64,000 nucleotides of DNA from Thioploca ingrica (GTDB taxonomy: Bacteria > Pseudomonadota > Gammaproteobacteria > Beggiatoales > Beggiatoaceae), in NCBI GenBank assembly GCA_000828835.1, contig AP014633.1:806001-870000 (forward strand), given 5' to 3'. Below, in pieces: positions 7,776 through 8,665 of the stretch (positions are counted from its first letter, which is position 1; every line of letters starts with the position of its first letter). A program made the translations under genes and the position numbers. Below the pieces are notes generated by a model. The model saw only the letters and a program-made list of their open reading frames with translations. It did no database searches and was not told where the DNA came from.

Positions 7776-8420
7776 ATGGTAATACGGTTACGTGAATTAA
7801 TAGTAATAATAATTTGTTTAAGTTTACCTATTCTAGCAATAGCCACACCTACTGCTGTGGTCGATGCGGTTCAAGCTAGAGCGGCTTTCCAACGTGAGAA
7901 TAGACAACAACCCCTTGCTCAAGGCGTAAAATTATATGCTGGCGATATTATCACTACCGGTGCCAATGCTCGGGTGATTATACGTCTTCCTGATAATAGT
8001 CTAATCAGAATTGGTGCTTATGCTCATGTCCAGTTTGAGCAATTAATTTTTCCGGTATCCAAATCAGCCATTTTAACGGCGGTATTTAAGGTACTCAAAG
8101 GTGTTTTTCGCTTCACCGGTAGTCATAGCGAGCCGATTGATGTCAAAATACGAGTTGGAAATAGCATTAGTGCTGGAATCCGCGGCACTGATGTTTACAC
8201 CCAGGCTCAACCCGACAAAGATTTAGTTTGTTTAATTAAAGGTCAAGTCAGTGTGCAATCTGGAAAAGTTACCGCAATGCTCAAGCAACCACGTGAAGGT
8301 TTCATTGTTCCTAAAGGGAGTCCTCCTTTACCTATCAGCCAAATTTCAGAAGAAGTATTTCAGCAATGGTTAAGAAATTCTGAAATGAATGAACATTCAT
8401 CAATGAACGGCTATCAGTGA
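7776..8420 (+). CDS. Secreted FecR-domain protein
   Basis: The 214-residue product has an N-terminal hydrophobic signal sequence (residues 8-22, ending near AIATP) and a FecR-type domain: GVKLYAGDIITTGANARVII followed by LPDNSLIRIGAYAHVQF and, later, IRVGNSISAGIRGTDVY. In stand-alone exported form this beta-rich domain occurs in periplasmic or surface proteins of unknown ligand, unlike the FecR anti-sigma regulators, which have an N-terminal cytoplasmic part. No sigma factor gene is adjacent. The last codons (TATCAG TGA) lie inside the first unit of the heptamer array that follows. The gene is divergent from lgt. Confidence 0.85.
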   Translation: MVIRLRELIVIIICLSLPILAIATPTAVVDAVQARAAFQRENRQQPLAQGVKLYAGDIITTGANARVIIRLPDNSLIRIGAYAHVQFEQLIFPVSKSAILTAVFKVLKGVFRFTGSHSEPIDVKIRVGNSISAGIRGTDVYTQAQPDKDLVCLIKGQVSVQSGKVTAMLKQPREGFIVPKGSPPLPISQISEEVFQQWLRNSEMNEHSSMNGYQ

Positions 8421-8665
8421 TTAACTATCAGATACTCATTATCAACGATTCGATAGCCGCTATCAATTAACCTTGAGCCATTATTAACTATCAGGTACTC
8501 GTTATCAACGATTCGATAGCCGCTATCGATTAACCTGGAGTCGTTATTAACTAACTGGTACCCGTTATCAACTATTAAGTAGCTGTTATCAAGTAATCTT
8601 AAACCGTTATTAACTATAATCGATTAATTACTTATAACTGATAATGGATAACTGACCAATGACAA
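8414..8665. repeat. Heptamer-phased direct repeat array (36 units, 63-bp higher-order period)
   Basis: From 8414 to 8665 the sequence can be cut into 36 consecutive 7-mers, many variants of TTAACTA, TCAACGA, TTATCAG or CTGATAA. The phrase TTAACTA recurs at 8421, 8484, 8547 and 8610, exactly 63 bases apart, with strong similarity of each 63-base block and visible 21-base sub-blocks. The array fills the whole space between the FecR gene stop (8418-8420, inside the first heptamer) and the stop of the convergent gene (8669-8671). No protein-like frame was recognised in it. TAACTGA-type heptamer repeats are known from intergenic regions of marine Beggiatoaceae. Confidence 0.9.

Follow-up and report, generated by a model that had tools for sequence, protein, structure and literature searches.

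The heptamer array that fills the gap between a FecR-like gene and its convergent neighbour in Thioploca ingrica belongs, in diverged form, to the TCAGTTA/TAACTGA heptamer family of the Beggiatoaceae, and in four well-aligned orthologous arrays of this species and a sister species the core of the 21-base unit has changed more slowly than the spacer. The 63-base block common to distant loci, the arrays kept at the same gene borders while their length changes, and the core, a putative factor site every 21 bp, lead us to favour, tentatively, an old, locus-anchored array of recognition sites. Positions given without further label are those of the window, the whole stretch of 64,000 nucleotides that was analysed.

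Extent, periods and anatomy of the array

The segment from 8414 to 8665 comprises 252 bases, or 36 heptamers, and the 7-, 21- and 63-base structure that a sequence-only reading of the window had described there is real. Over this segment the autocorrelation had values of 0.693, 0.558 and 0.449 at lags 63, 21 and 7 (z 13.3, 9.8 and 6.5), which none of 1,000 dinucleotide shuffles reached, and the top 17 of the 129 lags scanned were all multiples of seven. TRF, proposed as a check of the three periods, returned a row of period 63 (8420-8617, 3.1 copies, score 263) and a weaker row of period 21 (8440-8527, score 57) but none of period 7 for the array region. The 63-base copies start at 8417, 8480, 8543 and 8606. 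The same reading had called the period at these four positions exact, which holds for the spacing of 63 bases but not for the sequences, which are 72-88% identical: over a 75-base comparison with the first copy the second was 88% and the third 77% identical, and in the 25 bases that all four copies share, identity to the first was 84%, 76% and 72%. When the array is written in 21-base rows, the first heptamer of a row is near GTTATCA and the second and third have drifted. The array interior consists of 21-base units, each made of about 1.5 ancestral heptamers (TTATYAAYTA) and a diverged spacer.

The borders of the array needed one correction. Its start had been placed at the stop of the FecR-like gene, but the heptamer register extends back to about 8388, inside the ORF 7776-8420, and identity with the sister species ends at 8386. 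The array thus begins about 30 bases earlier, and the last codons of the gene and its TGA stop (8418-8420) are themselves array sequence. At its far end the array finishes, as had been described, just short of the stop of the partner gene (8669-8671, minus strand), so that it stands between two stop codons. It is non-coding except for the approximately 10 codons captured at the FecR C-terminus, which leaves little place for the earlier argument that a period divisible by three would spare reading frames. The features are as follows.

7776..8420, plus strand: FecR-domain protein with its last ~10 codons and stop in the array (Pfam FecR, E 2.1e-8; ORF; sister sequence)
8388..8634, plus strand: array body in the GTTATCA (TCAGTTA) orientation, 21-base units with core TTATYAAYTA (7-base register and 21-base rows; sister identity ends at 8386)
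8417..8479, plus strand: 63-base unit 1 (A-B-C; model R1 E 2.2e-18, the unit being among those that built the model)
8480..8542, plus strand: 63-base unit 2 (63-base spacing; R1 model match, unit used in the model)
8543..8605, plus strand: 63-base unit 3, more diverged (63-base spacing; R1 model match, unit used in the model)
8606..8626, plus strand: partial fourth unit, A only (63-base spacing and 21-base rows)
8635..8655, plus strand: right end in inverted orientation, TAACTGA-TAATGGA-TAACTGA, which is a TAACTGA pair 'split' as MacGregor uses the term (TAACTGA scores 23 at the right end, TCAGTTA 7)
8669..9808, minus strand: convergent neighbour, a 379-aa protein (ORF; no Pfam match; found in 17 of the 40 searched genomes, own included)

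Promoter-like sites were no more frequent than expected between 7700 and 9900 (6 vs 7.4 expected), and two of them fall in the array. In the sister species the FecR-like gene (L010, contig C138 of genome G001, 56535-57166) lies in two frames, split near residue 71, which is either a real break or a MAG error.

The TCAGTTA/TAACTGA family and its arrays in the genome

Rotated cyclically, the GTTATCA unit reads TCAGTTA, which is TAACTGA on the opposite strand. Direct repeats of TAACTGA have been described in Beggiatoaceae, some cyanobacteria and a few Bacteroidetes (MacGregor 2015, PMC4679880). According to the parts of that paper used here, the sets of the Guaymas strain hold two to six units and mostly lie just upstream of start codons, longer arrays are mentioned for some cyanobacteria and Bacteroidetes, and few direct repeats were found in T. 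ingrica; a translational role was suggested for the Guaymas repeats and their function was left open. Table 1 of the same paper places 12 of 170 sets toward the stop codon, so the position of the window array between two stop codons puts it in a minority class and is no bar to membership. By the published definition of at least two direct TAACTGA units, possibly split by a related heptamer, the array belongs to the family through its right end: the two copies at 8635-8655 are the only exact TAACTGA on either strand of 8381-8680. The corresponding gap of the sister species carries TCAGTTG-TCAGTTA-TCAGTTA. Since the unit belongs to a published family, the description of the structure as unexplained was too strong.

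TCAGTTA is also in genome-wide excess over other heptamers. In a 464-kb sample TCAGTTA gave 11 segments with a score of at least 20 and six other heptamers gave 0-4, and paired-unit TCAGTTA sites numbered 28 against a mean of 1.6 and a maximum of 7 for 60 permuted heptamers. Three exact TCAGTTA units in a row occurred in 10 of the 40 genomes searched and the reversed control in none of the 40. In the genome of T. ingrica itself (one contig, 4,810,005 bases), the matches listed included only 10 exact TCAGTTA triples, whereas a 31-base pattern of the diverged core had at least 123 matches, against 24 for its reversed control, among the matches listed. The scarcity of exact triples beside many diverged matches may be the reason why few direct repeats had been found in T. 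ingrica, where they exist in diverged form. Two further heptamer stretches lie in the window itself, one at 36638-36700 (TCAGTTA-type, then an inverted TAACTGA-like part) and one at 63310-63422 (AACAGTG and ACTGATA units mixed, with inverted halves).

Cyanobacterial STRR are heptanucleotide tandem repeats that are dispersed and intergenic. They resemble the arrays described here in all three respects, and their unit sequences differ. The heptamer SSRs of Xanthomonas and Nostoc (GGGNATC; PMC4692102) likewise have 7-base units, are mostly non-coding, occur genome-wide and vary in copy number, but they are G-rich, quadruplex-forming and of another sequence, and the parts of that paper used here show no 21- or 63-base order. 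The closest relatives are the repeats of MacGregor (PMC4679880), with the same heptamer, an intergenic position, an occurrence in Beggiatoaceae and runs split by related heptamers. In contrast to what is described for them in the parts used here, the arrays of T. ingrica are long and diverged, so that exact-repeat searches largely miss them, have a 21-/63-base order, combine both orientations in one array and, in some cases, contain a slowly changing core. The titles and abstract openings of a mainly non-subscription literature hold no mention of a 21- or 63-base order in TAACTGA arrays.

For a genome-wide view we took the 37 places matched by the pattern, removed 7 inside called ORFs and added the window array, giving 31 gaps; since a single pattern supplied the places, the set is incomplete and the counts are lower bounds, and ORF calls were simple and crude. 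The place at 144160 lies under an ORF judged spurious and was left out of the polarity count but used for the analysis of conservation. The left end was decided as TCAGTTA in 24 gaps and as TAACTGA in 2, and the right end as TAACTGA in 16 and as TCAGTTA in 3, with the two 70-base end windows overlapping in gaps shorter than 140 bases. Over both ends, 12 gaps were LR (TCAGTTA left, TAACTGA right), 0 RL, 3 LL, 1 RR and 15 undecided, and in an unbiased sample the only 3 opposite pairs were all LR. The period of 21 was the best of lags 7, 14, 21 and 28 in 16 of 21 array gaps, and 63 was the best lag in 5 of 21, one of them barely periodic. The convergent gap, which the sequence-only reading had treated as a special feature, proved to be one setting among several: the 31 array gaps were 13 >>, 9 <<, 6 <> and 3 ><, compared with 37, 40, 24 and 24 among 125 background gaps 100-450 bases long (obtained with a slightly different ORF cut-off). 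Convergent gaps were not enriched (3/31 vs 24/125, p 0.29), which indicates that convergence is not the theme of these arrays.

The 63-base block and the core in two species

The 63-base block is an ordered triplet of 21-base units, A-B-C, which the window array has in common, and in phase, with two loci megabases away in the same genome (G000), L002 at 3.73 Mb and L003 at 2.24 Mb. In none of the three pairwise comparisons did any of 5,000 permutations of the units equal the contrast of the A-B-C order; a further array, L004, is without this order (375, 606 and 2,967 of 5,000 permutations). The order common to three loci opposes a purely local origin. A 63-position model built from the three loci was run on the sister genome G001, a MAG, where the best hits had E 1.0e-14 (contig C183) and 7.1e-11 (C60). 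The first lies at the ortholog of L002 and the second, judged by its left flank, at the ortholog of a fourth locus, G000 1786411. The block is only weakly detectable elsewhere, with an E of 0.01 or less in at least 7 of 25 genomes among the best 150 candidates a genome.

Between L002 and its ortholog L141 the array of the sister species is a net 63 bases shorter, by one gap in one alignment and by four smaller gaps summing to 63 in another. This 63-base length change agrees with the earlier proposal of growth in whole 63-base blocks, and it is a copy-number difference between species, a single strain of each having been compared. In one alignment, with an identity of 176/218 as against 191/218 in another, mafft misplaced the 63-base gap. 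The A-B-C loci resemble each other far less (0.65-0.70 in phase) than do these orthologs (191/218), from which we infer an old spread of the block, earlier than the separation of the two species. At the edge of the L141 array (L141 1-1440) synteny breaks, and a Y1_Tnp-like ORF in two overlapping frames replaces the Lon-like ORF of L002, named by eye.

Other arrays were sought in the sister species from 38 places, of which 13 rows (12 loci) could be paired in the G001 stretches fetched and 25 could not; with L002/L141 added by hand this gave 13 alignments. Family arrays keep their gene borders in the two species and change in length, often by heptamers or blocks. The sister array is shorter at the window locus (145 vs 286 bases) and at L003 (111 vs 278), and over the 12 loci the net length differences were 34, -6, 144, 32, 0, -16, -2, 167, 106, 42, -107 and 141 bases. 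Invention of the repeat during assembly, which had been named as a possible refutation, is unlikely: in the 13 gaps aligned, a relative whose genome was assembled independently also has heptamer runs at these gene borders. At L113 (2024-3166 and 8207-9351, or G000 143023-144165 and 149206-150350) two inverted copies of about 1,145 bases are 97.5% identical, and one end of this duplication lies inside a heptamer array.

Eight of the 13 alignments could be used for a comparison of core and spacer, the other five being short, poorly alignable or without a 21-base register. Over the eight arrays, 53 of 608 core positions and 117 of 596 spacer positions had changed (p 5e-8). In the four well-aligned arrays (G000 144160, 1999180, 3724960 and 3732000), which were classed as unambiguous after the alignments had been seen, the counts were 25/414 and 84/412 (p 6e-10), the core changing about 3.4 times more slowly. 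In the four poorly aligned arrays, that of the window included, core and spacer did not differ significantly (28/194 vs 33/184, p 0.40), which indicates that the signal comes from the first four; the window array alone runs in the opposite direction (core 13/50, spacer 9/49, in the alignable part, the ortholog being about half as long).

The contrast in the well-aligned four was found at A/T sites (core 13/354, spacer 42/245) and not at G/C sites (12/60 vs 42/167, p 0.48). A/T sites of non-coding, non-array DNA had changed more than those of the core (206/2090 vs 13/354, p 5e-5). Removal of the bases under hits of the search pattern with at most 2 mismatches in either species left 6/177 in the core and 61/255 in the spacer; with hits of at most 3 mismatches removed, too little was left (2/43 vs 19/123, p 0.11). 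Compared with the expectation from non-coding trinucleotides, changes in the core were fewer (25 observed, 49 expected) and changes in the spacer more numerous (84 observed, 62 expected). Spacers were about 80% identical between the species unit by unit, and the four-fold sites of three genes were 63-74% identical.

Recognition sites and competing explanations

On the reading that we tentatively favour, the 63-base block would have spread before the two species separated, with blocks gained and lost since by slippage or unequal recombination, and the core would be the recognition site of a sequence-specific factor, most likely a DNA-binding protein, offered every two helical turns (21 bp). Since cores 21 bases apart are separated by two turns of B-DNA, the bound molecules would sit on one face, and arrays at gene borders would serve for binding, spacing or insulation and not for termination. 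A point against recognition sites is that the contrast of core and spacer rests on four arrays of two species, and the two-turn spacing may be a coincidence. A wider version is doubtful: the 21-base units could form genome-wide phased arrays for a Thioploca DNA-binding protein recognising approximately TTATYAANTAA every second turn, and the TAACTGA repeats of Beggiatoaceae could be an ancestral or less elaborate version of this binding system, which would organise or insulate gene borders. In four arrays the comparison of the two Thioploca points to constraint on part of the repeat, and that part, a 10-11-base core per 21 bases, is a defined probe for a binding factor.

Nearly as likely is a neutral history, in which an old TCAGTTA array spread, decayed and was re-expanded by slippage (from 7 to 21 to 63) with no function. 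Such a history would fit the labile array lengths at the 12 loci and at L002/L141, the unspecific gene contexts, the absence of significant core constraint in four of the eight arrays, and the finding that two of the three A-B-C arrays of the genome face only a short array at the orthologous place of the sister. It fits less well with the slow change of the core in the well-aligned four, about 3.4-fold slower than in the spacer and below what non-coding DNA would lead one to expect. Homogenisation by conversion would erase the spacers too, yet spacers are about 80% identical unit by unit.

We consider it unlikely that the inverted heptamer ends serve to fold the transcript, as a bidirectional terminator, stabiliser or attenuator between convergent genes, even though the predicted folds are better than chance. 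The window array folds better than 200 of 200 shuffles on both strands (z -4.3 and -4.0), the sister gap folds with z -3.6, and 26 array gaps compared with 60 control gaps gave medians on the two strands of -3.7 and -3.4 against -1.5 and -1.2 (p 9e-4). Double changes that keep a predicted pair numbered 7 on one strand and 5 on the other, and together with the folding of array gaps they may reflect some structural role. Pairs touched by a change were however kept little more often than expected (25 vs 19.4 and 29 vs 25.8), and pairing in the predicted folds is no higher at core than at spacer bases (0.59 vs 0.61 and 0.69 vs 0.67), so that RNA pairing is not supported as the cause of core conservation. 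An intrinsic terminator was set aside as well: the array holds no terminator-like site (G+C-rich stem followed by a T run), the one such site of 7700-9900 lying outside it at 8929. The array has no Rfam match at the gathering score, and arrays are not enriched in convergent gaps and occur in divergent ones (6/31). A strongly palindromic insert, with a fold z of about -15, is nested in a heptamer-ended gap at G000 2297293-2297607 (L131).

REPINs are small dispersed repeats with inverted ends outside genes. The present arrays resemble the REPIN/RAYT system in this form, and a non-autonomous mobile element of MITE or REPIN type, using its heptamer ends to insert at gene borders, could explain the fixed polarity of the ends, read as terminal inverted repeats (12 of 31 LR, none RL, 15 undecided), and the same 63-base block at distant loci. 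We regard it as very unlikely, because the association with Y1_Tnp is absent here: only 1 of the 13 Y1_Tnp (RAYT-type) loci of the two genomes has a heptamer stretch within 1.5 kb, where about 1.7 were expected. Mobility driven by a RAYT, which the Y1_Tnp-like ORF beside the L141 array had suggested, was rejected on the disagreement of these 13 loci, a list to which the L141 ORF does not belong. In addition, the similarity among A-B-C loci is far below that of the orthologs, and all 13 aligned gaps are occupied in both species, although the G001 stretches were mostly chosen by pattern and empty sites would hardly be visible. Intrinsically curved DNA from phased A/T tracts every 21 bases, which the recurrence of A/T-rich cores at two helical turns might suggest, is the least probable explanation and was not supported, since a wedge model made the window array straighter than 300 of 300 shuffles and, of seven arrays, one is clearly curved (3724960, reached by 3 of 300 shuffles) and one marginally (2614960, 29 of 300).

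Tandem repeats of other kinds also occur in the window. Those at 25700-25812 and 26439-26604 have units of 51 and 69 bases, periods divisible by three, and are perhaps coding, and a 21/42-base repeat at 47029-47142 is rich in AAGTAATC and may encode protein, perhaps a coiled coil.
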